Below, piece by piece: positions 29,367 to 49,869 of a stretch of DNA of 64,000 nt. Under the pieces are notes generated by a model, which was given only the letters and a program-made list of their open reading frames with translations, had not been told where the DNA came from and did no database searches. A program made the position numbers and the translations under genes. Every line of letters starts with the position of its first letter. Position 1 is the stretch's first letter. This DNA is from Methylotenera sp. (lineage in GTDB: Bacteria > Pseudomonadota > Gammaproteobacteria > Burkholderiales > Methylophilaceae), in assembly GCF_029946165.1 (NCBI RefSeq), contig NZ_JAQSDZ010000021.1:1-64000 (forward strand). The letters run 5' to 3'.

Positions 29367-30827
29367 TTAAGCCACTAACATATCCACAAACACATTCACT
29401 GGCGTGTTTTCTAGCTTAGTTTGATCTAAACATAACGCTAAAATATCCGCTTGTTTTTTAGCGTCAAAACGGCGTGCTAAGTTCACTTGGAATTTTTTCA
29501 CGAGTTCTGGGATGCCTTGACCGCGACGGCGGCGATGGCCGATCGGGTATTCCACTGCGATGTTGTCTGAGCTTGTGTGGTCTTTAAAGAACACTTGAAT
29601 CGCGTTGGCGATTGAGCGTTTTTCTGGATTTAGGTAGTCAGCCGTATATTCTGCTTTTTCTACGCATACCATTTTTGCGCGAAGTGCGTCGATGCGAGGG
29701 TCTGCTGCGGCGGCATTTTCGTAATCCTGTGCGGTTAAGTTGCCTTTTAACAATCCAATGGCAGACATATATTGAATGCAGTGGTCGCGATCTGCTGGGT
29801 TATCTAACGGGCCTGTTTTATCGATAATACGAATGGCTGATTCGTGCGTTGTAATCACGATTTTATCAATTTGTGCGATTTGTTCTAATGATTGAATTTC
29901 TCTGCCTACTTGTGCGTGTAATTGAATTGCACACTCCACAGCGGTTTGCGCATGGAATTCAGCTGGGAATGAGATTTTGAACAATACTTGTTCCATCACA
30001 TACGAGCCGTAACCACGTTGGAATTTAAAGGCATTGCCTTTAAATAGTACGTCATAGAAGCCCCAAGTTTTGGCTGTAAGTGCCGATGGATAGCCCATTT
30101 CACCTTGCATAGTCATCCATGCAAGCCTCACCGCACGAGAGGTTGCATCACCCGCTGCCCATGATTTACGTGAACCAGTGTTTGGTGAATGACGATAAGT
30201 GCGTAAGCTTTGACCATCGACAAATGCGTTAGAAACTGCGTTGATGATGTCTTCTTTATTGCCGCCTAGTAATTTTGTTACCACCGCAGTTGAAGCGATT
30301 TTTACTAAAATCACGTGGTCTAAACCCACACGGTTAAAGCTGTTTTCTAGCGCTAATACGCCTTGAATTTCATGTGCCTTAATCATCGCTGTCAGCACGT
30401 CTTTAATGGTCAGTGCAGCTTTGCCTTCGGCTACATTCTTACGTGAAATGTAATCAGCCGTTGCTAAAATGCCGCCTAAGTTATCTGATGGATGACCCCA
30501 TTCTGCGGCTAACCATGTGTCGTTAAAGTCTAACCAACGTATCATTGCGCCGATATTGAAGGCGGCTAAAATTGGGTCTAGCTGAAAAGAAGTGCCAGGT
30601 ACTTTTGCACCGTTTGGCACAACCGTACCAGCGATGACTGGGCCTAGTAATTTAGTACAAGCTGGGTAATCTAAAGCTTCAAAGCCGCAACCTAATGTAT
30701 CCATCAAACAATTGCGTGCGGTGTCGAATGCTTCGTCGGATTTGATTTCGTAATCAGCCACATAATTGGCGATATCGACAATCACTTGGTCTGGAGCGGG
30801 GCGTACGTTAGAGATATGGGCTGACAT
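29367..30827 (-). CDS. prpD: 2-methylcitrate dehydratase (MmgE/PrpD family)
   Basis: 486 residues, the size of E. coli PrpD (483). Conserved PrpD stretches include [51 protein letters not shown] and the C-terminal YPIGHRRRR segment. It dehydrates 2-methylcitrate to 2-methyl-cis-aconitate without an iron-sulfur cluster. AAGGA lies seven bases upstream of the ATG. It is the last gene of the operon and is separated from prpC by a 186-bp spacer holding palindromic repeats. With PrpD present there is no need for the alternative AcnD/PrpF pair, and neither is in the window. Confidence 0.94.
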
Positions 30828-30904
30828 TTTTTTCCTTAATTATAGTAAAAAATTTTAACTGCGGCGGCATGGCGTTAGCTGAGATTTTTTCGCTCTGAGT
30901 GTTT

Positions 30905-30970
30905 CCAGCGGAAGTCGGAATCTAGCGACTTAAAAAAGCCGCTGGATTCCGTTTCAAGCACGGAATGACG
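30905..30970. repeat. Cluster of nested palindromes in the prpC-prpD spacer
   Basis: Three nested or adjacent stems are visible: CCAGCGG (30905-30911) with CCGCTGG (30939-30945), AAGTCG (30912-30917) with CGACTT (30926-30931), and ATTCCGT (30946-30952) with ACGGAAT (30960-30966). The last ends in AATGACG like the dRS3-like copies at 10 and 21 kb. Lying inside the operon, the folded RNA could affect prpD message stability or expression. Confidence 0.7.
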
Positions 30971-31013
30971 AGCAAATTTCTTCTAAACGCAGTGTCTCTG
31001 TGGTGAGTTGGGT

Positions 31014-32201
31014 TTATCGATCTTTCAAACTGACAAAGGCTCTATTATCTGGCCCGTTATATTCAGCATTTGGACGAATGATTTTGTTATCAATACGCTG
31101 TTCAATCACATGCGCCACCCAGCCAGTGGTACGTGAGATCACAAAAATAGGGGTGAACATGCCAGTTGGAATGCCCATCATGTGGTAACTAGATGCGCTG
31201 TACCAGTCCAAATTAGGGAACATTTTTTTCTCGCGCCACATTACTTCTTCAATACGGGCTGAAATTTCAAAAAGCGTCATATTGCCTGCATCTTCGCATA
31301 ACTTGCGGCCAACTGCCTTGATTGACTCGTTTCGTGGATCTGCAATTGTGTAAACAGGATGACCAAAACCGATGATGATTTCTTTACGCGCCATGCGCTC
31401 TAAAATATCTGCTTCTGCTTCGTCAGCATTTTTGTAGCGCTCGATAATTTCCATGGCAGCTTCATTCGCACCGCCGTGTTTAGCGCCACGTAAGGCGCCA
31501 ATTGCACCAGTGATACATGAATACATGTCAGACAAGGTGCCAGCGATTACCCGTGCGGTGAAAGTTGAGGCGTTGAACTCATGCTCTGCATATAACACTA
31601 GCGAAGTGTTCATTGCATCAATGTGTAATTGACTTGGTGCTTTGCCGTGCAATACATGTAAAAAGTGTGCGGCAATGCTGTTATCGTCAGTTTCTAAATT
31701 CACACGTTTGCCATTGTGGCTATAGTGATACCAATACAACAAAATGGAGCCAAAGCATGAAATCAGCCGGTCACCTAAATCTTGTGCAGCCTTGGTATTA
31801 CGATCAGCAGCTTCTGGTTGCAATGTGCCTAACATCGCACAACCTGTACGCATTACATCCATGGGGTGAGTATTTTTTGGAATTTGTTCCAGCACGGTTT
31901 TGAGCGCAGCAGGGATGTCGCGTAAATTTTTAAGTTTGGCGTGATAGGTTGCTAATTGCGCTTTATTCGGCAGTTCGCCATGAATCAGTAAATATGCAAC
32001 TTCTTCAAAAGTCGCTTGTTTAGCCAGTTCAGTAATATCGTAACCGCGATAATGTAAATCATTGCCAGTATGACCAACCGTACAAACTGCAGTGGTACCG
32101 GCAGAAATGCCAGCCAACGCTACGCCTTTTTTCTTTTTAGGAGGTTCTGCACCGCTAGCTTGGGTGGTGGTTTGACTTGTGACTTGAATAGTTGCGTTCA
32201 T
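31014..32201 (-). CDS. prpC: 2-methylcitrate synthase
   Basis: 395 residues. Catalytic residues of the citrate synthase family are present in order: His in [10 protein letters not shown] (about 243), His in [14 protein letters not shown] (about 287) and Asp in NLDWYSAS (about 338). The short length and the absence of the N-terminal domain of hexameric GltA (about 430) favour PrpC. It condenses propionyl-CoA with oxaloacetate. A Lys-rich N-terminal segment ([12 protein letters not shown]) is normal. GGGAG precedes the ATG, and prpB ends 14 bp upstream. Since no gltA is present in the window, some citrate synthase activity is conceivable. Confidence 0.93.
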
Positions 32202-32215
32202 GTTACTTTTCTCCC

Positions 32216-33103
32216 TTAAGCTTTATTTTGATTGAATAGAGCGTCTAACTTTTGCTCAAAAGTGTGGTAACCCAAGTGGTCATAAAGGTCCATGCGTGTT
32301 TGCATGATGCCGATTACATTTTTTTGCGTACCATCATTTTTTACTGCTTGGTAAACATTAAGTGCCGCTTGATTCATGGCACGGAAGGCTGAAAGGGGGT
32401 AGAGCACCATGCTCACATCCGCTGTGCGTAACTCATCCACAGTAAACAATGGCGTGCTACCAAATTCGGTGATATTGGCTAACACTGGCACTTTGACAGC
32501 AGCTGCAAATTGTTTATACATGGCAAGTTCAGTAATCGCTTCAGGGAAAATCATGTCTGCACCAGCCTCAGCACAGGCGCAAGCGCGGTCTATGGCGGAT
32601 TGCAAGCCTTCAACGGCGAGCGCATCGGTACGTGCCATGATGACAAAATCATCGTATGGTTTTGCATCAACGGCCGCTTTTACGCGGTCAACCATTTCTT
32701 CTAAGCTAACAATGGCTTTGTTTGGGCGATGTCCGCAGCGTTTTGCTGATACTTGGTCTTCAATATGCACTGCCGCTGCACCAGCTTTAGCAATACTTTT
32801 TACACTGCGAGCAATGTTAAAAGCGCCACCCCAGCCTGTGTCAATATCTACCAATAACGGCGTATCGACGGCATCAGTAATACGGCGCACGTCAATCAGC
32901 ACGTCCTCTAAAGTAGAAATACCTAAATCTGGCAAACCAAGTGAACCTGCAGCAACGCCGCCACCTGATAAGTAAATGGCTTTAAAGCCGCTTTGGGTGG
33001 CGAGCATGGCGTGATAAGCATTGATCGCACCAATGATTTGTAATGGTTTTTCTGCGCTTAGGGCGGCACGAAATCGTGCCCCTGCTGTGGCTGCTTGTGT
33101 CAT
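32216..33103 (-). CDS. prpB: 2-methylisocitrate lyase
   Basis: 295 residues, the E. coli PrpB length. The PEP mutase/isocitrate lyase signature is KRCGHRPNK (around 121-129), with [11 protein letters not shown] supplying Mg-binding aspartates and MARTDAL following. It splits 2-methylisocitrate to pyruvate and succinate, the last step of the methylcitrate cycle; succinate then enters SDH encoded nearby. AGGT precedes the ATG; prpC follows after 14 bp and a CitE-like lyase gene lies upstream in the same operon. Confidence 0.95.
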
Positions 33104-33152
33104 ATTAATTACCTAAATGTGTTTATTTAAAAGAGTATTTTAAATTTAAAAA

Positions 33153-34154
33153 TTAACTGAAAAAGGCTTCAGTTGCCTCAGCAGGAATTGCAACTTTGGT
33201 TAATTTTGCTTTTTGCAAAATCTCCCAGAAATAACGATAAGTCGCTCTATCATGGAGCTCGCCATCATACTGAATTGGGCCCCAATCAGCTTTTTGAGCA
33301 GCAAGTAGAATATTTGCGCCATCTTGCACTTCGTCGAAATTCGGCTTCATGGCATCCACAATCGCTTCGATTTGCGTTGGGTAAATGCTCCACATACGTA
33401 AAAATCCAAATTCGTTGCGCGCACGTGATGCATCTGAACGAGTGGTTTCTACATTTTTAAGATCTAAAGTCACGTTGTGAGCTGGCACTACGCCATTGGC
33501 AAGTGCTGCTGCAACTAACTCTGCTTTTGCACGTGCAAGTAATCGATGATCAAACTGACCTGGGCTGCGCATGGCTGATGCTGGAATTGCGCCATGGTGA
33601 CCACTTACAAAATCCATTAAGCCAAAGTCCAACACTTGAACCCATGGCAATGTCGCGATTTCATGCACGGCTTTTAACGCGCCATGTGTTTCTATTAGAA
33701 TATGCACTGGAATCACACGTTCAATGCCATTAAATGTGGCGATTTTCTGAATGTAGGCGATCATTTCGCTGGCCTGTGCGTAAGTTGTACATTTTGGAAT
33801 GGTGATATAGCTTAAAACTTTGCCAGCACCAGCGACCAAAATATCTACATCTTGCTTCCAGTAGCTATTGGTGTAATCGTGAATACGTGCGCCAGCCATT
33901 TTGTGTTGATTGGCTTCGCTTGTTAAAACGCGCACAATCATTTCTGCATGTTCACGTTCTTGACCTGCCTGTGCGCCATCTTCGCAATCGCAAGTAATAT
34001 CGAAAACAGGGCCAATCGTGTCTTGCATCGATAATGCTTTAAGAATTAACTTTTCGCTTCCAGCAAAATGCTCGCAAGACGGAATGATTGGAAATGATTT
34101 TTCGCCGCCAAATAATGCGTCTTTAGGGTGAACTAGTTGTTGTGTGGTCGCCAT
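33153..34154 (-). CDS. CitE-like CoA-ester lyase (malyl/beta-methylmalyl/citramalyl-CoA lyase type)
   Basis: 333 residues of the HpcH/HpaI-citrate lyase beta superfamily. The expected residues are present: CEDGAQAGQ (about 57-65), the substrate Arg in GARIHDYTN (about 89), the Mg-binding Glu in ILIETHGAL (about 155) and Asp in GLMDFVSG (about 179). The sequence is closer in feel to the beta-methylmalyl/malyl-CoA lyase group than to citrate lyase subunits, and the other citrate lyase subunits are absent. It lies between mch and prpB, so it probably makes or cleaves a branched CoA thioester: beta-methylmalyl-CoA to propionyl-CoA plus glyoxylate, or citramalyl-CoA to acetyl-CoA plus pyruvate. 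AGGAAAAG precedes the ATG. Exact substrate cannot be read from sequence. Confidence 0.82.
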   Translation of the reverse strand: MATTQQLVHPKDALFGGEKSFPIIPSCEHFAGSEKLILKALSMQDTIGPVFDITCDCEDGAQAGQEREHAEMIVRVLTSEANQHKMAGARIHDYTNSYWKQDVDILVAGAGKVLSYITIPKCTTYAQASEMIAYIQKIATFNGIERVIPVHILIETHGALKAVHEIATLPWVQVLDFGLMDFVSGHHGAIPASAMRSPGQFDHRLLARAKAELVAAALANGVVPAHNVTLDLKNVETTRSDASRARNEFGFLRMWSIYPTQIEAIVDAMKPNFDEVQDGANILLAAQKADWGPIQYDGELHDRATYRYFWEILQKAKLTKVAIPAEATEAFFS

Positions 34155-34192
34155 TGTCTTTTCCTAAGTCTTTGAAAATGTTCTACGTTTTG

Positions 34193-35290
34193 TTAATTTG
34201 ATTTGCGTGGCATCAGCACGGTGTAATCTAAATCTAATACTACGTTCGGGTGGTAGTTCTGTTTGCCATCTTTACTGATATGGGTGCTTTCTAGCGCATC
34301 CGCAGGCATATTTTTTATGCCTATCATGCGTAATCTTAATGCGCCTACATCGCTGCGATTTGGCACATCCCATTTATCTAGCACTTCAGTCCATGTGTAG
34401 ATGGTGTCGTCACCAAACGAGGGGTTGCAATGTGTGCCGCCGTTAATCGCTACGATGCAAAGCGCATTTTCTAAGCCATCATTTGATAATGCGCGGCAAA
34501 GGGAAATGATGTGGCCGCCGTACATTAATCGTCTGCCAAATGCAGTTTTTTTCATCATCACATCATCAAAATGCAAGCGGGCATTATTTTGATAAAGCTT
34601 TGTGGCCAGCGTGTGATCGGTGTCGCTAATGGTCATGCCCGCTGGGTGGTTAATGCGCTCACCTACGGCATAGTCATCCCATAAATATTGTCCGCCAGTG
34701 ACCGCTGTATTGAATTTTCTAGCATCTAGAAAGTTTGGCACGCTTAATTCATCTGCTGGCACGTGGTTGGGTAAATCTGGAACTACGGTTTCTGGTGCTG
34801 GCGCATCCAGATTGTTTTTGTGTACCATCACCCAGCGCACCCATGAAAGTACGGGTTGCTGTAATTGGTTGATAGAAACCGAACGTACATAAACCACGCC
34901 AGATTTGCCGTTGGAATTTTGTTTTAAGCCAATCACTGTTGAGCTGGTGCTCAATGTGTCGCCGATATGCACAGGCTGCAAAAAGCGCACGTCTGCATAG
35001 CCTAAGTTTGCGATTGCATTGACGGAAATATCAGGCACGGTTTTACCAAACGCGATATGAAAAGCTAGTAAGTCATCTACAGGTCTGGCGTTATAGCCTA
35101 ATGATTGAGCAACGGTATCTGCCGAGTGCAACACTTGGCGTGCGCCTGTTAACGCAATGTATAAAGCCATTTCGCCTTCTGCAATAGTGCGTGGCGTGGC
35201 GTGATGAATTACTTGATTGAGGTGAAAGTCCTCAAAGAAGTTACCTGCATTGATTTTGCCTGTTTTGATGGTAGTTTCGGTTTTAGACAT
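34193..35290 (-). CDS. mch: Mesaconyl-CoA hydratase (beta-methylmalyl-CoA dehydratase), MaoC type
   Basis: 365 residues forming a double hot-dog MaoC protein. GNFFEDFHLNQVIHHATPRTI at the N-terminus strongly recalls Mch of Rhodobacter sphaeroides (GRFFEDF..Q.I.HATPRTI, about 343 residues). A second hydratase half (about 200-345) begins YLWDDYAVGERINHP. The enzyme interconverts mesaconyl-C1-CoA and beta-methylmalyl-CoA in the ethylmalonyl-CoA, methylaspartate and 3-hydroxypropionate pathways. Its start overlaps the upstream lyase gene by eight bases, with GGAAG inside that gene as ribosome-binding site. The rest of the ethylmalonyl-CoA pathway (ccr, ecm, mcd) is not in the window, so it probably serves a short propionyl-CoA/glyoxylate/mesaconate module. 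Confidence 0.85.
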   Translation of the reverse strand: MSKTETTIKTGKINAGNFFEDFHLNQVIHHATPRTIAEGEMALYIALTGARQVLHSADTVAQSLGYNARPVDDLLAFHIAFGKTVPDISVNAIANLGYADVRFLQPVHIGDTLSTSSTVIGLKQNSNGKSGVVYVRSVSINQLQQPVLSWVRWVMVHKNNLDAPAPETVVPDLPNHVPADELSVPNFLDARKFNTAVTGGQYLWDDYAVGERINHPAGMTISDTDHTLATKLYQNNARLHFDDVMMKKTAFGRRLMYGGHIISLCRALSNDGLENALCIVAINGGTHCNPSFGDDTIYTWTEVLDKWDVPNRSDVGALRLRMIGIKNMPADALESTHISKDGKQNYHPNVVLDLDYTVLMPRKSN

Positions 35291-36164
35291 AGCTTTCTTC
35301 CAAAGTCTTAATCATTTCGCTGAGTTTTAATAATCGCTCAGCCGCTCTCACGTGATGACGTTCAACAAGCTTGTCGTTAACCACAACCGTGCCTTTACCT
35401 TGCTCGTTTGCTTGTTTTAACGCGGCGATGATCTCACGCGCATGCGTCACTTCTGAGGATTGCGGCGTGTAAGCATCATTGCTGTAGGCTAATTGCGCAG
35501 GGTGTACTAATGATTTGCCATCAAAACCCATATCACGCCCCAAGCGGCATGCGTATTCAAAAGAGTGCATATTTTTGAAATCACTTGTAATGCCGTCTAC
35601 CACTGCGTGACCATAAGCGCGCGCAGCTAAAATGACCAAAGAAAGCGAAGTTAAAATTGCAGAGCGCTCATGGGTAACGCGTGCGTGTAATTGGGAAATT
35701 AAATCAGAAGTTGCCATCACAATACATACGATGCGGTCAGAAGCCGCAGCAATTTCTTTTGCGTTCAAAACCGCAATGGGGCTTTCTATCATCACCATAA
35801 TCGGTAAGTGACTGCCGCCAGCAGCATCAAGTAAAGAAAGCGCGGTGAGTACATCCTCGCGAGATTCAATGTTTGGAAATAAAACGGCATCAATTTTGGT
35901 TTTTGCAATGGCTTTAATATCGTCAGGACCCCATTCAGAAGTGAGGTCGTTAACCCGCACAACAACTTCACGTGAGCCATAGCCACCTTCATTCACATAA
36001 CGCACCACATTTTCACGCGACTCTACTTTGCACTCAACTAATATCGGGTCGCCCAAATCTAGTATGACGGAGTCGGCATGTAACGTGCGCGCACGCTCAA
36101 GATAGTGCGTATTGCAACCTGGTACATAAAGCATAGAGCGCCTAGGGCGAAAATATTGAGCCAT
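35283..36164 (-). CDS. CitE-like CoA-ester lyase with altered LDLxD motif
   Basis: 293 residues from the ATG at 36164 (AAGG nine bases upstream). The frame is open for 23 more codons, but these overlap the promoter and operator, so a longer protein is excluded. It is a HpcH/HpaI-CitE family lyase: RPRRSMLYVPG at the N-terminus, Arg in VVRVND, Glu in MIESPIAVLNAKEIAAA, Asp in ATSDLISQL and a C-terminal GFDGKSLVHPAQ. The usual LDLEDA(V) motif reads LDLGDPI, so a nearly invariant Glu is Gly. The metal ligands themselves are kept. It is the first gene of the operon ahead of mch; L-malyl-CoA or beta-methylmalyl-CoA lyase is the best guess. Confidence 0.8.
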   Translation of the reverse strand: MAQYFRPRRSMLYVPGCNTHYLERARTLHADSVILDLGDPILVECKVESRENVVRYVNEGGYGSREVVVRVNDLTSEWGPDDIKAIAKTKIDAVLFPNIESREDVLTALSLLDAAGGSHLPIMVMIESPIAVLNAKEIAAASDRIVCIVMATSDLISQLHARVTHERSAILTSLSLVILAARAYGHAVVDGITSDFKNMHSFEYACRLGRDMGFDGKSLVHPAQLAYSNDAYTPQSSEVTHAREIIAALKQANEQGKGTVVVNDKLVERHHVRAAERLLKLSEMIKTLEESYV

Positions 36165-36203
36165 TTTGTTACCTTTAGTTTTAATTGTTTTAAACCTAGG
36201 CTG

Positions 36204-36233
36204 ATTATATAGAGAGAAAATAAAAAATGTCAA
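36204..36233 (-). promoter_or_regulatory. Consensus sigma70 promoter of the lyase-mch-prp operon
   Basis: On the minus strand TTGACA (36233-36228) and TATAAT (36209-36204) are both perfect and spaced by 18 bases. Transcription would begin near 36197, about 33 bases before the ATG at 36164. This is the strongest promoter I see in the window and argues for high-level expression unless repressed. Confidence 0.88.
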
Positions 36234-36236
36234 TAT

Positions 36237-36261
36237 ATATCTTATGTCTTATATAAGATAT
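36237..36261. promoter_or_regulatory. Palindromic operator candidate for the GntR regulator
   Basis: Outer arms ATATCTTAT (36237-36245) and ATAAGATAT (36253-36261) are exact reverse complements. A perfect inner 12-bp palindrome TCTTATATAAGA covers 36247-36258, so TCTTAT-type half-sites recur. The site lies just upstream of the -35 box of the minus operon and about 8 bp from a possible -35 of gntR, as expected for a GntR operator. Confidence 0.7.
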
Positions 36262-36268
36262 AAAATGC

Positions 36269-36410: not shown

Positions 36411-37148
36411 ATGATAGATAAACAATACAATTCGCCAAGCTATAAGCCTTTATATGATCAGATTAAAGTATTGCTGACGCAAAGCTTAATCGGTGGTGAG
36501 TGGCGCCCAGGCGACATGATTCCAAGTGAGATTGAATTGGCTGGTCGTTATAAGGTGAGCCAAGGCACGGTAAGAAAAGCTATAGACGCACTTGCTACCG
36601 AAAATATTCTCATTCGCCGTCAAGGTAAGGGCACGTTTGTAGCTACGCATAGTGCAGAAGGCATGAAGTTACGTTTTTTAAGGCTAACTTCGCAAGATGG
36701 GCAAAAAGAGTTGCTGCAAAATGAATTTATTTCATGTACCAAAGGCAAGGCGGATGTGCGCATGGGGCAAGTGCTAGACCTAAAGGCAGGCGCATCAACT
36801 ATAGAAATAAAGCGCTTACTTACCTTTTCGGGCAGGCCGTTGATATTTGATCATATCGTAGTGCCAGCCGCGCCATTTAAAGGTTTGAATGGAACGCGCG
36901 TAGAAGAAAATAACGGCTCGATGTATAGCATGTACGAGTCAGAATTTGGCGTGCGTATGGTGCGAGCTGAGGAACGCCTGAAAGCAGTGGGCGCTAGAGG
37001 CGAGGTGGCTAAGGCATTGGGTTTAAAAGAAGGTGAACCAATCTTAAGTATAGAACGCGTTTCATTTACTTACGGCGATAAGCCTATGGAATGGCGTTTG
37101 GGACTTTGCGTCACAGATAATCATCACTACATGAATGAGCTCGAATAA
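36411..37148 (+). CDS. GntR-family regulator with UTRA ligand domain (HutC subfamily)
   Basis: 245 residues. The N-terminal winged helix (about 10-75) shows the GntR pattern WRPGDMIPSEIELAGRYKVS followed by GTVRKAIDALATE and RRQGKGTFVA. The rest is a UTRA domain (about 95-240) that would bind a small metabolite. It is divergent from the lyase-mch-prp operon and upstream of malic enzyme and SDH. In many betaproteobacteria a GntR regulator occupies a similar place beside sdh genes, so control of this carbon node is likely. The inducer could be a methylcitrate-cycle or C4/C5 acid; unknown. Confidence 0.9.
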   Translation: MIDKQYNSPSYKPLYDQIKVLLTQSLIGGEWRPGDMIPSEIELAGRYKVSQGTVRKAIDALATENILIRRQGKGTFVATHSAEGMKLRFLRLTSQDGQKELLQNEFISCTKGKADVRMGQVLDLKAGASTIEIKRLLTFSGRPLIFDHIVVPAAPFKGLNGTRVEENNGSMYSMYESEFGVRMVRAEERLKAVGARGEVAKALGLKEGEPILSIERVSFTYGDKPMEWRLGLCVTDNHHYMNELE

Positions 37149-37155
37149 TGCTTTT

Positions 37156-37255: not shown

Positions 37256-37329
37256 GCGAGTACAGAGAGTGTAGTGTTAAGAAAATAATTGCATACTAAA
37301 AACTAAACCCTGAAAAGGTATTGAGAAAA

Positions 37330-38556: not shown

Positions 38557-38567
38557 GGTATTTGATA

Positions 38568-39332: not shown

Positions 39333-39402
39333 TTGACCTTGTGTTAATTAACTCAGCCAATGGAATAGTCATTATTTAAAATTTATTGAAGGTTAATTGG
39401 TT

Positions 39403-41216: not shown

Positions 41217-41957
41217 ATGAAATTCTCAATTTATAGATTCAACCCTGACGTAGACAAAAAACCTTACATGCAAGATTACGATGTAGTGCTGGAAGACAGC
41301 GACCAAATGTTGTTGGATGCATTGTTACGCATCAAAGATTTGGACGATAGTTTGAGCCTGCGTAAATCATGCCGCGAAGGTGTTTGTGGTTCTGACAGCA
41401 TGAATATCAACGGTAAAAATGGCTTGGCTTGTATTACTAAACTGTCTGATTTAGAAGAGCCTGTGGTGCTTCGCCCCATGCCGGGTTTGCCTGTGATTCG
41501 CGACTTAGTTGTAGATATGACGCAGTTTTTCGAGAACTATAATTCGGTTAAGCCTTATTTGGTAAACAACGACCCTGTTCCTGAAACTGAGCGTTTACAG
41601 TCGCCTGAAGACCGCGCCAAGCTTGATGGTTTGTATGAATGTATTTTGTGTGGCGCATGCACTACTTCTTGCCCCTCTTTTTGGTGGAACCCAGATGAAT
41701 TTGTCGGCCCAGCAGGTTTAATGCAAGCCTATCGCTTTATGGTAGATAGCCGCGATCAGGCGTTAGATGAGCGTTTAGAAAACTTAGAAGAGCCTGAGCG
41801 TTTGTACCGTTGCCACAACATTATGAACTGTGTGGAAGTTTGCCCTAAGAAACTTAACCCAAATGCTGCCATTGCGAAAATCAAAGATCTGAAGTTTGAG
41901 CAGGCTCGTGAGCATAAAAACAAAGCAAAAAAACACATTGAAATTAAGTCCGTTTAG
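41217..41957 (+). CDS. sdhB: Succinate dehydrogenase iron-sulfur subunit
   Basis: 246 residues with the three cluster motifs: 2Fe-2S in SCREGVCGSDSM and GLAC (third position Asp, as in E. coli), 4Fe-4S in CILCGACTTSCP and 3Fe-4S in CHNIMNCVEVCP. It carries electrons from FAD to the quinone site. It lies 38 bp after sdhA and 20 bp before sdhE. Confidence 0.97.
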   Translation: MKFSIYRFNPDVDKKPYMQDYDVVLEDSDQMLLDALLRIKDLDDSLSLRKSCREGVCGSDSMNINGKNGLACITKLSDLEEPVVLRPMPGLPVIRDLVVDMTQFFENYNSVKPYLVNNDPVPETERLQSPEDRAKLDGLYECILCGACTTSCPSFWWNPDEFVGPAGLMQAYRFMVDSRDQALDERLENLEEPERLYRCHNIMNCVEVCPKKLNPNAAIAKIKDLKFEQAREHKNKAKKHIEIKSV

Positions 41958-42366: not shown

Positions 42367-43494
42367 ATGAATAGTCCTGGAAAAATCAAGTGTTATACCA
42401 ACAGCAATATGCTGGGTGAGAATTGGCCTGGCATACAGCTTTACTATCCACCTGTTAAGTATTCGCCAGCGCAGGGCATTTACGAAGATGTCACGCAAGC
42501 TGCAGCGCGTATGAAAAAACATGCGCATCACACTAATGCACATACTTTGATTTTTGATTTGGAAGATGGCTGTCGTCAAAAAGAAATGAGTCGCGATTTA
42601 CTGCGCCAAGAGTTGCCTGAGCTACGCAAAGTTAACCCAAGTGTCACTATTGCCATTCGATCAAACTCATTCCGAACCGATGAATATGAGTTAGACATGC
42701 AACTCGTTAGCGACATGTCTGATTGCATTGACGTGGTAATGCTTGCCAAAGCCGGCGAAGCCTATGGTGCTGCCGAAGTGCGCGACTTATCTAGCTTGTT
42801 ACTCGAGTTAAATCCGAATATTACGATTCAGCCAATTATCGAGCATCCAAAGTCGTTGAAAATCGCCCCAGAGTTAATGCAATACAGCACAGTGAAACAT
42901 GTGGTATTTGGTATTCATGATTTTTCAAAAGCGATGGGTATACACATCACACCAGAACACTGGATTGAAGAATTGCAGTTCTATATGAATCAACTTATGT
43001 TTGAGGCTCGTATCGCGGGTAAGGGCGTGATTGGTGGTGTTGAAACACTCATTGGTGCGAATATCATGCCTGAAAAATTCGTCGAGCCGCATGATGTGCG
43101 CCGCTGGTTGGATTTACATGGCGATTATGAGTCACGCATTGTTTATAAACACGCTTGCCAAGAGGCTGCTATGGGTTTAACTGGTAAACAGGTGATTCAC
43201 CCAGGCCACATTCATTTATGTAAAACGGCTTATACGCCCTCACCCACTGAAGTGAATCAAAAAGTGCGCATCTTAAAAGCGGCAATTGAGGCAGATGCTT
43301 TACATGGCGGAGCAATTAAGTTTGAAGGTGAAATGTTAGATCCGCCAATGTTTGGTAAAGCATTGCAGACATTGCTCAGAGCGCATGCCTTGCGGGCGCT
43401 TAACCCAGGTGATATGGATTTTGCGCTGCAAGTGCTTGAGTTGTTGCCTGCTCAAGTGATACGTCAAAACTGGCCGTATGGTGTGTTGCTGTAA
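42367..43494 (+). CDS. Divergent CitE/HpcH-family CoA-ester lyase
   Basis: 375 residues, longer than the other two lyases. Core residues of the superfamily are retained: FDLEDGCRQKEMSR (about 64-77), Arg in IAIRSNSF, Glu in PIIEHPKSL and Asp in FGIHDFSKAMG, then a C-terminal GLTGKQVIHPGHI. About 60 extra residues at the end (FGKALQTLLRAHALRALNPG onward) have no assignment. It sits between sdhE and an acyl-CoA ligase gene, with GGAAGA before the ATG. A lyase or a thioesterase-like malyl/citramalyl-CoA enzyme acting on the ligase product is plausible. I do not recognise a characterised orthologue. Confidence 0.75.
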   Translation: MNSPGKIKCYTNSNMLGENWPGIQLYYPPVKYSPAQGIYEDVTQAAARMKKHAHHTNAHTLIFDLEDGCRQKEMSRDLLRQELPELRKVNPSVTIAIRSNSFRTDEYELDMQLVSDMSDCIDVVMLAKAGEAYGAAEVRDLSSLLLELNPNITIQPIIEHPKSLKIAPELMQYSTVKHVVFGIHDFSKAMGIHITPEHWIEELQFYMNQLMFEARIAGKGVIGGVETLIGANIMPEKFVEPHDVRRWLDLHGDYESRIVYKHACQEAAMGLTGKQVIHPGHIHLCKTAYTPSPTEVNQKVRILKAAIEADALHGGAIKFEGEMLDPPMFGKALQTLLRAHALRALNPGDMDFALQVLELLPAQVIRQNWPYGVLL

Positions 43495-43552
43495 ATTTTA
43501 GTTCCATTGCACTAGATTAATTATACATATCGAATTTAAAGAGAGTCGAATA

Positions 43553-45202
43553 ATGCAAAAACTAGAACAATTTACCAAATTTGAACCATCTGCAGAATGG
43601 AAATGGAGCGTTCCAACACACTTCAATATTGGCGCGGCATGTACTGATAAGCACTTGAATACGCCAGCGGCCTCATTGATTGCGATGATTGTAGAGGATG
43701 ACGCTCAAGGTACTTCACAAATCACCTTTGAGCAATTAGCCAAACGCACCGATCAATTTGCTCAGTTACTTAGAAATTTGAAAGTGGAGGCGGGTGAGCG
43801 CGTGCTGATACGCTTACCGAATAGCTTGGATTATCCGACTGCATTTTTAGGCGCGATGAAGCGTGGTGCGATTTCAGTGCCAACCTCAACCTTGCTAACT
43901 GCTGAAGAGGTCGCTTATTTAGCAAAAGATTCAACAGCTACGGTGCTGGTGACAGATAAAGCGGCGTGGCCATCATTGCAAGACCATTTAACAGGGTTGC
44001 CTAATTTAAAACACGTATTGTTATCAGGCATTGGCGAAATAATAACGCATGCAAGCCTAAATGTTTGCGATTTAGACGCACAACTTTCTGCAATTCAAAC
44101 CTCTGAGCCAGCGCATTTAACGGCCGCAGATGACCCTGCTTATTTGGTTTATACCTCAGGCACGACAGGCTACCCTAAAGGCGTGCTACATGCACACCGT
44201 GCCTTGATTGGTCGTGAACCAGCCTCTAAGTATTGGTTCAATTTCGATGCAAATTCGCAAGATCGAATCATGCACTCAGGCAAGTTTAATTGGACTTATG
44301 TCTTAGGTTCAGGCTTGATGGATCCGCTCTATTTAGGCAAAACCGTCATTGTGCATGAAGGCAAAAATGACGCTGATTTATGGACACGCTTAATTGCAAA
44401 ACATTCAGCGACGATTTTTGTGGGCGTGCCAACGATTTATCGCCAAATCATCCAAAAATCTACAGCTAAGCAAACTGATGTGCCAAGCTTGCGCCACTGC
44501 ATGAGCGCGGGTGAGCATCTGTCAGATGAAGTATTGCAACAATGGCGCGAGCGTTTTGGTGCAGATATTTATGAAGCGGTTGGCATGAGTGAGTTTTCGT
44601 ACTATTTAAGCCAAAGTATATTCCGTCCGATACGTGCTGGTTCTGCAGGTTTTCCGCAACCTGGTCATGCCATTAAGTTGCTTAATCCTGAAACCTTAGA
44701 AGAGGTTCCGCAAGGCGAAGAGGGCATGATTAGCGTGCCAGATAGCGACCCAGGTTTATTCTTGCGTTATTGGAATCTAGACGAAGAAACAGCAAAATAT
44801 AAGCACGACGGTTGGTTCTTCTCAGGTGACTATGCCCGTTATGATGAAGATGGCTATATCTGGTTCTTAGGCCGTAAAGACGACATTATTAAGAGCTTTG
44901 GCTACCGTGTGTCACCCTATGAAATTGAGCGCGTGTATAAATCACACCCTGCCGTGGCAGATTGTGCAGCAGTGGGTGAAGAGCTTGAGAAAGACAAACT
45001 ATTAGTCGTAACTTATGTGATTTTGCAACCAAATTCAGAAGTTACTGCGGATGAGTTAATGGCTTTTGGTAAACAGCATTTAGCCGCATATAAAGCACCA
45101 AAAACGGTTTACTTAACCAAGGATTTTCCACGTACTAAAAATGGTAAAATTTTGCGTAAAGATATTAACAACAAAATTGCTTACGCAAAATCAGCTAGAT
45201 AG
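43553..45202 (+). CDS. Acyl-CoA synthetase, AMP-forming (benzoate-CoA ligase-like)
   Basis: 549 residues of the ANL superfamily: the P-loop YTSGTTGYPKG (near 200-212), the adenylate motif YEAVGMSEFSYYLSQ (about 340-354), GDYARYDEDGYIWFLGRKDD (about 422-441) and the catalytic Lys in RTKNGKILRKDI near the C-terminus. It activates a carboxylic acid to its CoA thioester with ATP. The substrate is not evident; the setting between a CitE-like lyase and a class I fumarase suggests propionate or a C4/C5 dicarboxylate such as mesaconate or citramalate, but acetate is also possible. The fumarase ATG is 14 bp downstream, so they are cotranscribed. Confidence 0.88.
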   Translation: MQKLEQFTKFEPSAEWKWSVPTHFNIGAACTDKHLNTPAASLIAMIVEDDAQGTSQITFEQLAKRTDQFAQLLRNLKVEAGERVLIRLPNSLDYPTAFLGAMKRGAISVPTSTLLTAEEVAYLAKDSTATVLVTDKAAWPSLQDHLTGLPNLKHVLLSGIGEIITHASLNVCDLDAQLSAIQTSEPAHLTAADDPAYLVYTSGTTGYPKGVLHAHRALIGREPASKYWFNFDANSQDRIMHSGKFNWTYVLGSGLMDPLYLGKTVIVHEGKNDADLWTRLIAKHSATIFVGVPTIYRQIIQKSTAKQTDVPSLRHCMSAGEHLSDEVLQQWRERFGADIYEAVGMSEFSYYLSQSIFRPIRAGSAGFPQPGHAIKLLNPETLEEVPQGEEGMISVPDSDPGLFLRYWNLDEETAKYKHDGWFFSGDYARYDEDGYIWFLGRKDDIIKSFGYRVSPYEIERVYKSHPAVADCAAVGEELEKDKLLVVTYVILQPNSEVTADELMAFGKQHLAAYKAPKTVYLTKDFPRTKNGKILRKDINNKIAYAKSAR

Positions 45203-45216
45203 TGATAGTAGACAAA

Positions 45217-46746
45217 ATGACAACGATACGCCAAGAAGACTTTATTCAAAGCATCGCCGATGCCCTGCAATATATTTCTTACTACCATCCTGTTGATTAT
45301 ATTCAGGCATTAGGTCGTGCTTATGAGGCAGAGCAATCACCTGCCGCTAAAGATGCTATTGCGCAGATTTTAACTAACTCGCGTATGTGTGCAGAAGGTA
45401 AGCGTCCGCTTTGCCAAGATACTGGCATTGTTGTTGCTTTCGTTAAAGTAGGCATGAATGTGCAATGGGATGCCGTGCTTGATGTTGAGCAAATGGTGAA
45501 TGAAGGCGTGCGCCGTGCTTACTTGCTTCCAGAGAATAAATTGCGCGCTTCTATTGTGAGTGAACCTGCTGGAAAGCGCCCTAATACTAAGGATAATACG
45601 CCAGCTGTGGTGCATGTTTCATTGGTTGCTGGTGATAAAGTTGATGTGCAAATTGCAGCAAAAGGCGGAGGTTCTGAGAACAAAGCTAAGTTGGCAATGC
45701 TTAACCCGAACGACAGTATCGTTGATTGGATTTTGGAAGTCGTGCCCCAAATGGGTGCGGGTTGGTGTCCGCCGGGCATGTTAGGCATCGGTATCGGTGG
45801 TAGTGCAGAAAAAGCCATGTTGTTGGCAAAAGAGTCTTTGATGGCGCCGATTGATATGCACGAACTTAAAGCTAGTGGTGCTAAAAATAGAATTGAAGAA
45901 TTGCGCTTAGAGATTTTTGAAAAAGTGAATAACTTAGGCATAGGTGCGCAAGGTTTAGGTGGCTTGGCAACAGTGTTGGATGTGAAGATTTTAGATTACC
46001 CAACGCATGCGGCCAGTTTGCCAGTAGCGATTATTCCCAACTGCGCGGCTACACGCCATGTGCATTTTGAGCTGGATGGTAGTGGTGCGGCAGAGCTAGA
46101 AGCGCCTAACTTAAGTGATTGGCCGAATGTACATTGGGCACCAAGTGAAGCGTCATTAAGAGTGAATTTAGACGAGATTACGCAAGCCAATATTCAGACT
46201 TGGAAACCAGGCCAAACTTTATTATTAAACGGAAAATTGCTCACAGGTCGCGATGCCGCTCATAAGCGTATTGCAACCATGTTGGCAAAAGGTGAGAAAT
46301 TGCCAGTAGATTTTAAAAACCGTTTTATTTATTACGTCGGCCCAGTTGATGCAGTACGAGATGAAGCGGTGGGTCCTGCAGGCCCCACTACAGCAACACG
46401 TATGGATAGCTTTACAGAAATGATGTTAAGTGACGTTGGTTTGCTGGGCATGGTTGGTAAAGCTGAGCGTGGTGATGAAACGATAGCGTCGATTGCAAAA
46501 CACAAATCAGTTTATTTAACTGCTGTAGGCGGCGCGGCTTATTTAGTGAGTAAAGCCATTAAAAAAGCTGAAGTGTTGGCGTTTGAAGATTTGGGTATGG
46601 AAGCGATTTATGAGTTCACGGTGCAAGATATGCCTGTGACCGTGGCCGTGGATAGCCAAGGTAATTCAGTACACACCACTGGCCCTGCTGAATGGAAAGA
46701 AAAGATTGCGCAGCATAAAACGATAGAAATTCACTCTGTGCCTTAA
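45217..46746 (+). CDS. fumA: Fumarate hydratase, class I (iron-sulfur)
   Basis: 509 residues in one chain. The cluster cysteines are seen in LCQDTGIVV (about 62-70), GAGWCPPGM and PNCAATRHVHF. C-terminal KGEKLP..NRFIYYVGPVD and VGPAGPTTATRMD match the beta part. It hydrates fumarate to malate after SDH. Class I fumarases of some proteobacteria also hydrate mesaconate to citramalate (mesaconase), which would fit this neighbourhood. The ATG at 45217 gives the normal family N-terminus (TTIRQEDFIQSIADALQYIS); an in-frame GTG at 45202 is disfavoured. Confidence 0.94.
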   Translation: MTTIRQEDFIQSIADALQYISYYHPVDYIQALGRAYEAEQSPAAKDAIAQILTNSRMCAEGKRPLCQDTGIVVAFVKVGMNVQWDAVLDVEQMVNEGVRRAYLLPENKLRASIVSEPAGKRPNTKDNTPAVVHVSLVAGDKVDVQIAAKGGGSENKAKLAMLNPNDSIVDWILEVVPQMGAGWCPPGMLGIGIGGSAEKAMLLAKESLMAPIDMHELKASGAKNRIEELRLEIFEKVNNLGIGAQGLGGLATVLDVKILDYPTHAASLPVAIIPNCAATRHVHFELDGSGAAELEAPNLSDWPNVHWAPSEASLRVNLDEITQANIQTWKPGQTLLLNGKLLTGRDAAHKRIATMLAKGEKLPVDFKNRFIYYVGPVDAVRDEAVGPAGPTTATRMDSFTEMMLSDVGLLGMVGKAERGDETIASIAKHKSVYLTAVGGAAYLVSKAIKKAEVLAFEDLGMEAIYEFTVQDMPVTVAVDSQGNSVHTTGPAEWKEKIAQHKTIEIHSVP

Positions 46747-46820
46747 GTCACATGTGTAAAGCACTATTTGCGTTAAACTCTGTCAAAATTGACGATATAT
46801 ACTCAGAGAGCGCAGATAAA

Positions 46821-47126: not shown

Positions 47127-47187
47127 AAGAAATTGACTTAAATCTAAAAATTTACAAATGTGAAATTTTTCATAATTTAGCTTAGTT

Positions 47188-47193
47188 TATAAT
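47188..47193 (+). promoter_or_regulatory. Possible -10 box of acnB
   Basis: A perfect TATAAT about 90 bases ahead of the acnB ATG suggests a separate promoter for aconitase, but the matching -35 region (near 47165) is only T-rich. The 154-bp spacer between the EF-hand gene and acnB holds nothing else clear. Confidence 0.3.
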
Positions 47194-47280
47194 TTAATCT
47201 TGGTTGAGAAATAACAAGCTCAACGACAACAGTTTCAAAAAAGCATTTTTAAACAGTCACTATTTATTAAAAGAGCCACT

Positions 47281-49869
47281 ATGTTAAAAGCCTATCAAGC
47301 CCATGTTGCTGAACGCAGCGCTATTCAACTTCCACCATTACCGTTGTCAGCTGAGCAAGTTGCGCAAGTGGTTGAGCTACTTAAAGCCCCACCAGCTGGT
47401 GACGCTGAAACATTACTTGATTTAATAGCTAATCGTACGCCAGCAGGGGTTGACCAAGCGGCTTATGTTAAAGCAGCTTTTTTAGCAGATGTTGCTAAAG
47501 GCATCGCTAAGTCACCCGTAATTTCACCTGAAAAAGCGGTGGAATTACTTGGCACCATGCTTGGCGGTTATAACGTGCAAGCCTTAGTGAGCTTGCTTGA
47601 AACTCCGATGGCGGCAAATGCAGTAACTGCATTAAGCAGTACAATTTTGATGTTCGACGCATTTCACGATGTAGATGTATTAATGAAAGCTGGTAACGCG
47701 CATGCTAAAAAGTTGATAGAAAGCTGGGCGAATGCCGAATGGTTTACCAATGCGTCAGTCCTTGCAAATGAAATCAAAATGGTCGTTTTCAAAGTGGATG
47801 GCGAAACCAACACCGATGACTTAAGCCCAGCGCAAGATGCGTGGAGTCGCCCAGATATTCCTTTGCATGCCAAAGCCATGCTTATAAATAAAATGCCTGA
47901 TGGCCTTAAACTAATCGATACCTTAAAACAAAAAGGTTTGCCGCTCGCTTATGTTGGCGATGTGGTGGGTACAGGTTCATCACGTAAATCTGCCATTAAC
48001 TCAGTGCAATGGTTTATGGGTAATGATATTCCTAACATCCCAAACAAACGCACTGGCGGCGTGATTTTGGGCGCTAAAATTGCACCGATTTTCTTTAACA
48101 CAGCGGAAGATTCAGGCGCACTACCAATTCAATGTGATGTATCAAAACTGAATATGGGCGATGTGATTGTGATTAAGCCTTATGAAGGCAAAGTGCTAAA
48201 TGAAGCGGGCGAGGTGCTTTCTACTTTTGAACTCAACCCAGTCACTATGCCAGACGAAGTGCGCGCTGGTGGCCGTATTCCGTTGATTATTGGTCGCGGT
48301 TTAACCTCAAATGCACGTAAGTCATTAGGCTTGCCAGATACAACGGCGTTTATTAAAGCGACTCCAGCGGTTGCCTCAACCAAAGGCTTTACGCTTGCAC
48401 AAAAAATGGTCGGTCGTGCTTGTGGTTTGCCAGAAGGCACAGGGGTTCGCCCGAATACTTATTGTGAGCCAAAAGCCACAACGGTTGGTTCGCAAGATAC
48501 TACTGGCGGTATGACACGCGATGAATTAAAAGAGTTGGCATGTTTGGGTTTCAGTGCCGATTTAGTTATGCAAAGTTTCTGCCACACAGCCGCTTACCCA
48601 AAACCAGTCGATATTAAATTACAACACAGCTTGCCTGAGTTTATGTCTAGCCGTGGCGGCGTTTCATTACGCCCGGGCGATGGCGTGATTCACTCATGGT
48701 TAAACCGCTTAGTGTTGCCTGATACCGTTGGTACAGGCGGAGACTCTCATACGCGTTTTCCAATCGGTATTTCATTCCCCGCGGGCTCTGGTTTAGTCGC
48801 TTTTGCCGCGGCAACAGGCGCAATGCCATTGGATATGCCTGAATCAGTACTGGTGCGCTTTAAAGGCACCATGCAACCTGGTATTACCCTGCGCGACTTA
48901 GTCAATGCGATTCCTTATGCAGCAATTCAAGAAGGTACTTTAACCGTTGGTAAATCAGGCAAAAAGAACGTGTTTAACGGCCGTGTGTTAGAAATTGAAG
49001 GCTTGCCAGATTTAAAAGTGGAGCAAGCGTTTGAACTTGCTGATGCCTCAGCTGAACGTTCGGCCAATGGTTGTACTGTGCTTTTAAATGAAGCACCTGT
49101 GATTGAGTTTTTAAGATCAAACATCGTGTTGATGCAAAACATGATTGAAAATGGCTACGAAGATGCACGCACATTACAACGCCGCATTGAGAGCATGCAA
49201 GCGTGGTTAGCAAAACCAGAGTTACTCAAACCAGATACGGATGCGGAATATGCGCATGTGATTGAAATTGATTTAAACACCATTAAAGAGCCACTCGTGG
49301 CTTGCCCTAACGACCCTGATGACATCAAGACATTGTCAGCTGTAGAGGGTGACAAAATTGACGAAGTTTTTATTGGTAGCTGTATGACCAATATTGGCCA
49401 TTATCGTGCTGCGGCTAAAGTATTAGAAGGCTCGGGCGGTATTCCAACAAGGCTTTGGATTGCGCCGCCAACCCGTATGGACGAAGCACAATTGCGTGAT
49501 GAAGGCGTTTATTCAACTTTTGGTGTAGTGGGTGCGCGTACTGAGATTCCAGGTTGTTCATTGTGCATGGGTAACCAAGCACGCGTGGCAGATAAAGCGA
49601 CAGTGTTCTCAACCAGCACACGTAACTTTGATAACCGTATGGGTAAAGATGCGCGTGTTTACTTAGGTTCAGCTGAATTAGCGGCAGTTTGCGCTAAACT
49701 TGGCCGCATGCCAACGCATGCTGAGTACTTGGAAACAGTGGGTAACAAACTTGCTAATACGGCTGAAATTTATAAATATCTAAATTTCGACCAAATGACT
49801 GAGTATAAAGCTGCTTTAGATACCTTAAGTTCTGGTAAAAAGGTGATATCAATTGCTGAAGTGGTTTAG
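47281..49869 (+). CDS. acnB: Aconitate hydratase B / 2-methylisocitrate dehydratase
   Basis: 862 residues, as in E. coli AcnB (865). The N-terminal HEAT-like domain (1-155), the swivel domain ([21 protein letters not shown]) and the catalytic domains ([29 protein letters not shown] with the three cluster cysteines) are in the AcnB order. It interconverts citrate and isocitrate and also hydrates 2-methyl-cis-aconitate to 2-methylisocitrate, the step between PrpD and PrpB. Its presence in this neighbourhood completes the methylcitrate cycle without AcnD. A strong terminator follows. Confidence 0.96.

Follow-up and report, generated by a model that had tools for sequence, protein, structure and literature searches.

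Methylophilaceae have been described as carrying a gene cluster whose role was given as unknown (PMC4109929, PMC3728764); a passage dated 2013 still calls the role unknown and places expression in situ generally above that of the main carbon pathway (PMC3728764). A table row headed 'Methylcitric acid cycle genes' lists prpCBD, cyl1, maoC, cyl2, gntR, mdh, sdhABCD, cyl3, prpE, fum and can, scored 1 in all nine columns, and the accompanying text states that the cluster structure is identical to an earlier description (PMC4109929). The cluster is reported as absent from Ca. Methylopumilus strains (PMC6794327); one metagenome-assembled genome (MAG) with that label (L078) carries it in our set, perhaps a matter of naming. 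Here we analyze a further member, with the same genes in the same order and identical content, at positions 29367-49869 of a 64,000-nucleotide stretch (the window; NZ_JAQSDZ010000021.1) of a Methylotenera genome of 2.94 Mb in 27 contigs. The original prediction for this island, made from the sequence letters, knew of no characterized pathway with this exact combination of enzymes; the cluster and its order had already been published with role unknown, and the prediction had not seen that part of the cluster is separable.

Comparison among genomes reveals a composite cluster, a point that is new here: a separable six-gene core (cyl1-maoC-cyl2, gntR and cyl3-acs) plus an add-on. Also new is a putative 23-bp operator at the gntR|cyl2 divergent promoter, which travels with the core. 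The prpBCD genes and a short malic enzyme gene are joined to this core in two methylotroph lineages without 2-oxoglutarate dehydrogenase.

The island genes are intact open reading frames (ORFs) in the ORF list and family scans. The minus strand carries prpD, prpC, prpB, cyl1, maoC and cyl2, and the plus strand gntR, mae, sdhC, (sdhD), sdhA, sdhB, cyl3, acs, fum and acnB, as follows.

29367..30827, minus strand: prpD, 2-methylcitrate dehydratase (NF006943 882.8 bits, TIGR02330 851.8 bits, both above cut-off)
31014..32201, minus strand: prpC, 2-methylcitrate synthase (NF009006 671.9 bits, cut-off 550)
32216..33103, minus strand: prpB, methylisocitrate lyase (TIGR02317 426.3 bits, cut-off 354.4)
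33153..34154, minus strand: cyl1, CitE-like protein of the 3QQW/3R4I group, probable beta-methylmalyl-CoA lyase (3qqw 519.7 bits; catalytic residues; Mch neighbors)
34193..35290, minus strand: maoC, predicted mesaconyl-C1-CoA hydratase, Mch (homology to 4e3e and 8hgn; pocket residues)
35283..36233, minus strand: cyl2, CitE-like protein, putatively of malyl-CoA-thioesterase type (Glu for the lid Asp and Gly for the Mg-water Glu in most; Ruegeria relative)
36204..36233, minus strand: promoter-like TTGACA-18-TATAAT before cyl2-maoC-cyl1-prpB-prpC-prpD (12/12 consensus positions)
36238..36260, minus strand: putative operator TATCTTATATAAGACATAAGATA, 23 bp, proposed GntR site (one window site; in 25/30 genomes)
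36411..37148, plus strand: gntR, GntR/UTRA regulator (PF00392, PF07702)
37321..38556, plus strand: mae, short malic enzyme, 411 aa (PF00390, PF03949; NF009501 subfamily match under its full-length cut-off)
38562..38981, plus strand: sdhC (TIGR02970 122.8 bits, cut-off 52.3)
38988..39332, plus strand: putative sdhD, 114 aa (position between sdhC and sdhA, hydrophobic sequence)
39397..41178, plus strand: sdhA (TIGR01816 947.2 bits, above cut-off)
41217..41957, plus strand: sdhB (NF004616 358.6 bits, above cut-off)
42367..43494, plus strand: cyl3, divergent CitE-like protein, candidate malyl-CoA or citramalyl-CoA lyase (PF03328; catalytic residues)
43553..45202, plus strand: acs, AMP-forming acyl-CoA ligase, proposed mesaconate:CoA ligase, not PrpE-like (PF00501, PF13193; Gly/Trp position)
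45202..46746, plus strand: fum, class I fumarase with alpha and beta parts fused, possible mesaconase (TIGR00722 and TIGR00723 above cut-off)
47281..49869, plus strand: acnB, aconitase B / 2-methylisocitrate dehydratase (TIGR00117 1472.9 bits, above cut-off)

Curated NCBIfam cut-offs are exceeded by PrpC, PrpD, PrpB, SdhA, SdhB, SdhC and AcnB, and among these are PrpC, PrpD, aconitase B and PrpB, the members of the methylcitrate cycle that leads from propionyl-CoA to pyruvate and succinate. The predicted enzyme list (PrpC, PrpD, AcnB, PrpB, succinate dehydrogenase (SDH), fumarase, malic enzyme, CitE-like proteins, Mch and ligase) is thus borne out by intact ORFs and family scores. The oxaloacetate-forming step, correctly noted as missing from the island, is supplied elsewhere, since malate:quinone oxidoreductase (Mqo) scores above cut-off on contig C19. 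The PrpC search returned one further citrate-synthase homologue in this genome (contig C8, 32% identity).

A separable core, its add-on and its putative operator

Loci were taken as the best 80 of 211 MaoC relatives from a search of genome contigs with MaoC, and the window proteins were mapped onto them; the closest named maoC relatives in this set are those of Methylotenera MAGs (97% identity). Gene presence was counted in the 49 of 80 loci with flanks long enough, leaving out 31 short-flank loci, and locus types were sorted by hand from layout and record titles. The genes cyl1, maoC, cyl2, cyl3 and acs are all present in 49/49 full-flank loci, a count that cannot reveal Acs or Cyl3 living without Mch because the loci were found via Mch. 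All 38 full-flank loci of Methylophilaceae type are complete for cyl1, maoC, cyl2, gntR, cyl3, acs, mae, prpBCD, sdhA and sdhB, and the clustering is therefore not due to chance. In the same 38 loci fum was seen nine times and acnB was left uncounted, as the 10 kb flank mostly stops short of both.

The genes beside the core differ between locus types. prpBCD adjoin it in 38/38 Methylophilaceae, 2/2 Methylophaga, 0/6 Gallionellales and 0/3 Thiobacillus/Sedimenticola-type loci; for a malic enzyme of >50% identity the corresponding counts are 38/38, 2/2, 1/6 and 0/3. sdhA and sdhB stand beside the core in the Methylophilaceae type only (38/38). The gntR gene is found in all 46 Methylophilaceae, Methylophaga and Gallionellales loci and in 0/3 of the Thiobacillus/Sedimenticola type. 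Among Gallionellales the non-core genes vary from locus to locus, and a long malic enzyme (756-762 aa, versus 411 aa for the methylotroph form) adjoins acs in three of the 14 loci drawn (L024, L031 and L034). Sedimenticola and Chromatiales loci have a cyl3-acs-cyl2-maoC run with cyl1 set apart. As core loci occur without prp and sdh beside them, the island cannot be a single indivisible unit. Gallionella, Sideroxydans and Thiobacillus oxidize iron or sulfur; the occurrence of the core without the rest in relatives of such bacteria makes its role testable.

The maoC tree has no firm deep order, and we hence make no call on passage of the module between Methylophaga and Methylophilaceae. Pfam scans of eight ORFs from the GC-rich loci L139-L141 returned no matches, and these ORFs are probably in wrong frames. 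In L011 and L029 the cyl1 match is split in two, suggesting a frameshift or an error of assembly. A DUF2889 protein adjoins cyl1 in Gallionellaceae L024 (9430-10020) and lies near a cyl1-type gene and pyruvate carboxylase in Cupriavidus pinatubonensis L100 (329-910). In Sedimenticola L068 (3897-4721), a protein adjoining cyl1 is grouped by similarity with a phosphoenolpyruvate (PEP)-synthase-regulator-type protein of Methylophaga.

The cyl2 promoter is sigma-70-like and matches the consensus at 12/12 positions. It is the only perfect one of the 34 sites in our scan; as 36.4 were expected, nothing but this full score is notable. The called cyl2 ORF is probably 24 codons too long, the likelier start being the ATG at 36161, downstream of this promoter-like site. 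Four bases upstream of the promoter, in the gntR|cyl2 divergent region, lies TATCTTATATAAGACATAAGATA, which has one site in the window and none in 100 shuffles. With ≤3 mismatches it has 32 occurrences in 25 of 30 module-bearing genomes (the reversed pattern has one), some sites being counted twice, once per strand. Of these 32 places, 30 were examined: gntR and cyl2 flank 29 of them, and gntR is present at the remaining one, which lies close to the end of a contig. The match is exact in the genome of the window, in five further Methylophilaceae genomes and in each of the three Methylophaga-type genomes, and has 1-3 mismatches in 13/14 Gallionellales. No operator was found in the four Thiobacillus/Sedimenticola-type genomes, three of whose full-flank loci are without gntR, or in one Sideroxyarcus. 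We infer that GntR binds at this putative operator. One Methylophaga locus (L040; G009:C2:346788-346810) has a second copy with two mismatches, 164 bases from the first and nearer gntR.

Elsewhere in the window, a 124-aa ORF between fum and acnB (46752-47126) has no Pfam match and, by eye, an EF-hand-like stretch, DTDKNGFADVTE. Towards the end of the window (60345-63978) are a HlyD-type secretion adaptor and a protein resembling LapD, perhaps parts of a large-adhesin secretion system, and a 2001-aa ORF lies at 10810-16815.

Active sites of the hydratase, the CitE-like proteins and the ligase

For residue comparisons, loci were dropped from the alignments at match coverage ≤70% of the query, identity ≤35% or ORF length ≤80% of the query; of the 80 loci this kept 75 for cyl1, 79 for maoC, 61 for cyl2, 61 for cyl3, 58 for acs and 64 for gntR, and the window row was added to each. 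MaoC scores 443.3 bits to Chloroflexus 4e3e and 375.1 bits to Methylorubrum 8hgn over 352-353 residues. Its scores to halophile-type Mch models are far lower (NCBIfam 50, Pfam 53.7 bits) because MaoC belongs to the other Mch type. The pocket of 8HGN is described as Phe71, Ser79, Asn85, Arg142, Asn226, His231, Tyr248 and Gly249 (PMC10164722). All eight residues are present in the window MaoC and are kept in 76-80 of 80 aligned sequences. Judged by homology and pocket, then, maoC encodes a mesaconyl-C1-CoA hydratase, and the Mch of the original prediction is real.

The catalytic set given for Rhodobacter Mcl is Asp42, Glu44, Asp45, Arg76, Glu141, Asp168 and Asp299, and the R. sphaeroides malyl-CoA thioesterase group alone is described there as having Glu for the catalytic Asp (PMC3832036). 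These seven positions, which mark the CitE-like superfamily and not the substrate, are intact in 75-76 of 76 Cyl1 and 61-62 of 62 Cyl3 sequences; Cyl2 fails. By these residues Cyl1, which is nearer to 3QQW/3R4I (519.7 bits to 3qqw) than to Mcl1, and Cyl3 retain a lyase active site. In Cyl2 the catalytic lid Asp is Glu in 60/62 sequences and the Mg-water Glu (Glu44) is Gly in 58/62, while the following Asp is retained in 50/62. Cyl2 thus mostly has the lid Glu of the Mcl2 group but does not keep all of its remaining metal-site residues, so we file it only as thioesterase-like; it is probably no lyase. Of the three CitE-like lyases predicted, two therefore stand, Cyl1 and Cyl3 having complete lyase sites; three lyases are ruled out by the thioesterase-type site of Cyl2.

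Among the matches listed, the closest 120 were considered in the Cyl2 protein search. The best plasmid match is a Rhodococcus record without annotation (44%), and the best in an annotated plasmid record is a Ruegeria protein (40%) with the lid Glu, whose gene lies near a MaoC dehydratase (52% to the window MaoC), sdh and mdh. The R. sphaeroides mcl2 and mch genes are arranged alike.

Does the ligase belong to the methylcitrate cycle? As read in PMC4109929, where a table names the genes for that cycle and the ligase prpE, the cluster would serve to oxidize propionate, or propionyl-CoA supplied from elsewhere, and the CitE-like proteins and MaoC would be accessories. The company of prpBCD, acnB, sdh and fum fits this, as does prpB above cut-off in 28/30 module-bearing genomes. 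These genomes comprise the window's own, 11 other methylotrophs, 14 Gallionellales and four others; they are mostly MAGs of unstated completeness, so that single absences are weak and 12/12 patterns stronger, yet from two lineages only. Eight stretches around prpB were examined: seven hold prpB and prpC together, and the eighth (L088) shows prpD, with prpB by family search only. Six of the eight carry a 628-634-aa ligase, of which three exceed the PrpE cut-off and the other three fall short of it, though PrpE is their best model; AcnD and PrpF exceed their cut-offs in one scanned locus. Since the separate prp loci have a ligase of their own, the module ligase is not the propionate ligase in those genomes.

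All six 615-640-aa ligases of separate prp loci were compared with 59 Acs. The former have [WY]WQTE (three YWQTE, three WWQTE) where 59/59 Acs have [VI]GMSE, which places Gly at the position of the second Trp. In acetyl-CoA synthetase work, that Trp reportedly closes the pocket on acetate and propionate. No PrpE model is among the best 25 families listed for Acs. On this residue comparison Acs is probably no PrpE. Propionate, moreover, needs neither two lyase-competent proteins nor a true Mch, and the core stands without prp and sdh beside it in Gallionellales (0/6 full-flank loci). We consider the propionate reading unlikely.

Among solved structures, the nearest relatives of Acs are benzoate-CoA ligases, and Cyl3 is both divergent and rare (6/369 genomes of the class at E≤1e-60, including the window's own and, by its coordinates, the Methylophaga genome of L039). 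These two observations would suit a core that acts on another acid, for example a branched or aromatic one, activated by Acs and cut by Cyl3, with Mch-Cyl1 handling a by-product. Every full-flank locus, however, has Acs and Cyl3 together with Mch and Cyl1, and one shared substrate is simpler, although the loci were found via Mch; we think another acid quite improbable.

Mch-Cyl1 pairs also occur outside these groups. In plasmid records, Mch adjoins a Cyl1-type gene in Cupriavidus oxalaticus, C. metallidurans (an unannotated record) and Sphingobium. Divergent genes in C. oxalaticus encode an acyl-CoA dehydrogenase, an MmgE/PrpD protein and a CoA-transferase for which succinyl-CoA:mesaconate CoA-transferase is the best model (458.6 bits, cut-off 700), and C. 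metallidurans has matches to the same three, its CoA-transferase being cut by the end of the stretch. In the latter (L101, 529-5409) the MmgE/PrpD match is in two pieces about 3.5 kb apart, as if split by an insertion. The CoA-transferase-like neighbor in Sphingobium matches the mesaconate model no better than it matches others. In Marinobacter M3C, the Mch homologue comes after a protein for which mesaconyl-CoA isomerase is the best-scoring model (417.5 bits, cut-off 725) and is itself followed by an insertion sequence element, with no Cyl1 match within the stretch. Cyl1-type genes without annotated MaoC within 6 kb are found in Azoarcus, C. pinatubonensis and Variovorax, and Cyl1 is thus not tied to Mch everywhere.

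A proposed route to pyruvate and its direction

Our favored reading, a tentative one of somewhat less than even probability, is that Acs activates mesaconate, which is cleaved to propionyl-CoA and glyoxylate, both going on to pyruvate. The input would be a branched C5-dicarboxylate: mesaconate, plus citramalate if the fumarase doubles as mesaconase, a service that class I fumarases can perform (PMC4682846). Acs would convert mesaconate and ATP to mesaconyl-CoA, replacing the CoA-transferase found beside Mch in heterotrophs. MaoC would hydrate the C1 ester to beta-methylmalyl-CoA, and Cyl1 would cleave this to propionyl-CoA and glyoxylate. Propionyl-CoA would then pass through PrpC-PrpD-AcnB-PrpB to pyruvate and succinate, and succinate through SDH and Fum to malate. 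Glyoxylate and acetyl-CoA would be joined by Cyl3 to malyl-CoA and hydrolyzed by Cyl2 to malate, as a substitute for malate synthase. Malic enzyme would turn malate into pyruvate, Mqo would make oxaloacetate, and GntR would control the divergent promoter via its one operator. Comparison supports the Mch identity and the two active-site classes; the Cyl1 reaction, Acs substrate, division of labor between Cyl1 and Cyl3, Cyl2 activity, pairing of GntR with the operator, and direction are what we propose.

The Mch-Cyl1 pairs of Cupriavidus and Sphingobium count in favor of this route, and the protein types beside the pair in Cupriavidus (CoA-transferase, MmgE/PrpD and acyl-CoA dehydrogenase) are also described in Cupriavidus necator for use of methylsuccinate and C5 acids (PMC12290011). 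The genome content is consistent with several of these steps. A canonical malate synthase is present in 5/30 genomes, all Gallionellales, and its absence from the other 25, including all 12 methylotrophs, fits the Cyl3-Cyl2 substitute. Family-III CoA-transferase was found in 3/30 genomes and 0/12 methylotrophs. Mct-type isomerization is thereby ruled out for most genomes, and in these 27 some other enzyme must activate the acid; Acs is at hand. Crotonyl-CoA carboxylase/reductase (ccr) is above cut-off in 0/30 genomes and the B12-dependent acyl-CoA mutase was found in 4/30 and 0/12 methylotrophs, which rules out the ethylmalonyl-CoA pathway and upholds the prediction that the island works without it. 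Glutamate mutase was found in 0/30, in a search without positive control, as 14 control genomes were also under cut-off. On that count the methylaspartate pathway finds no support; of the predicted mesaconate/methylaspartate degradation feeding the methylcitrate cycle, the mesaconate part survives as our favored reading. All known mesaconyl-CoA sources that were searched for (mutase, ccr, glutamate mutase and family-III CoA-transferase) are at 0/12 in the methylotrophs. 2-Oxoglutarate dehydrogenase E1 is found in 0/12 methylotrophs, 14/14 Gallionellales and 3/4 others. Class II fumarase is above cut-off in 4/30 genomes, the window's own not among them, with strong sub-cut-off matches in two Methylophaga genomes and one Gallionellales genome.

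Pyruvate is a product in either direction. In Methylophaga a same-strand run continues from acs to the PEP-synthase-regulator-type protein and PEP synthase, and together with the island's malic enzyme this makes the output look like pyruvate. The degradative direction is favored by prpBCD following cyl1 on the same strand, by malic enzyme and by the Methylophaga PEP synthase. In strain NB0046 of OM43, prpBCD transcripts are listed as up in the dissolved-organic-matter treatment, and from nutrient-depleted methanol to dissolved organic matter an HpcH/HpaI aldolase rises from 101 to 1,055 and a long-chain fatty acid-CoA ligase from 104 to 1,045 (PMC5120137). From annotation and adjacency, these two neighbors would be cyl3 and acs.

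Run in reverse, the same enzymes could form a glyoxylate-assimilation loop without Mct and Meh. Propionyl-CoA and glyoxylate would give beta-methylmalyl-CoA (Cyl1), mesaconyl-CoA (MaoC) and mesaconate (Cyl2 as thioesterase); Fum, as mesaconase, would then turn mesaconate into (S)-citramalate, Acs would make citramalyl-CoA from it, and Cyl3 would end the loop with acetyl-CoA and pyruvate. Such a loop uses each core gene once and keeps neighbors together (cyl1-maoC-cyl2; cyl3-acs-fum), fum being near the core in L056 and L059 too. The conserved module genes include no transporter, as expected of an internal substrate, 27/30 genomes are without Mct's family, and the thioesterase and ligase steps would make the direction irreversible. 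It requires, however, that Cyl2 hydrolyze mesaconyl-CoA and that Acs activate citramalate, for neither of which we know a precedent. It would also compete with the methylcitrate cycle for propionyl-CoA, even though prpBCD follow cyl1, and would leave malic enzyme less to do. We give the loop a small chance.

Several observations weigh against mesaconate degradation as we propose it. No C5-acid transporter is in the conserved module in any lineage, among neighbors that were family-scanned in part, while the C. oxalaticus cluster has transporters near by. The C. oxalaticus CoA-transferase stays under its family cut-off (458.6 of 700 bits). Cyl2 has lost both Glu in L065 and L068 and keeps both in L056 and L059, and the Ruegeria relative retains the Glu that most Cyl2 have lost; Cyl2 may therefore not be catalytic everywhere. 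The rise in NB0046 partly follows nutrient and vitamin addition, as the intermediate values in that data set indicate (PMC5120137). The methylsuccinate enzymes described for C. necator (PMC12290011) act on C4-CoA esters and supply citramalyl-CoA lyase; Mch uses the C1 ester. The substrates of Acs (mesaconate), Cyl1, Cyl2 and Cyl3 are putative, and all lyase and hydratase steps are in principle reversible.

A bolder proposal, and a very improbable one, is that C1 specialists (ribulose monophosphate methylotrophs and iron/sulfur oxidizers) have in common a glyoxylate-propionyl-CoA loop not yet described. The parts that Mct and Meh play in the 3-hydroxypropionate bi-cycle would fall in this loop to a thioesterase, a class I fumarase and an AMP ligase. 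Methylotrophs lacking 2-oxoglutarate dehydrogenase would have the loop coupled to the methylcitrate cycle, SDH and malic enzyme, closing an alternative respiratory cycle.

Comparison with known systems

The division into core and add-on, the named residues and the candidate operator reduce the question of the cluster's role to a handful of enzyme assays. The outcome would bear on the reason that a route for multicarbon acids persists in bacteria regarded as obligately methylotrophic or lithoautotrophic. Among the titles and abstracts listed from open-licence PMC full text, none ties the module to mesaconate in methylotrophs or Gallionellaceae, and none of those listed concerns mutants of the Methylotenera cluster; an earlier proposal is possible in the older papers on the cluster, reportedly Kalyuzhnaya 2010, Lapidus 2011 and Chistoserdova 2011.

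Like the lower half of the ethylmalonyl-CoA pathway (Mcl1, Mch and Mcl2 of Rhodobacter), the island has Mch, a CoA-ester lyase and a putative malyl-CoA-thioesterase-type protein. It differs in that ccr is above cut-off in none of the 30 genomes and the B12 mutase is absent from the 12 methylotrophs, in its input by a proposed ligase, and in Cyl1, which is not near Mcl1. With the second loop of the 3-hydroxypropionate bi-cycle (Mcl, Mch, Mct and Meh) it has C5-CoA chemistry in common, MaoC scoring 443 bits to the Chloroflexus enzyme. The bi-cycle, however, has one trifunctional Mcl where the island has separate CitE-like proteins, and most module-bearing genomes are without the family of Mct. 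In the haloarchaeal methylaspartate cycle, mesaconate is activated, hydrated and cut to propionyl-CoA and glyoxylate, and a CitE-like malate-forming step follows (compare PMC3832036). The steps proposed for the island (activation, hydration, cleavage and CitE-like malate formation) are alike, but glutamate mutase is at 0/30 and propionyl-CoA would exit via the methylcitrate cycle. The Cupriavidus clusters (L096 and L101) share the adjacent Mch and Cyl1-type genes. They have a CoA-transferase homologue, MmgE/PrpD, acyl-CoA dehydrogenase and, in L096, transporters near by, whereas the island has a ligase and no transporter. Closest of all is the Methylophilaceae methylcitric acid cycle cluster itself. 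The papers on it name the ligase prpE; in our comparison the core is separable, the ligase is not PrpE-like and Cyl2 appears thioesterase-like.

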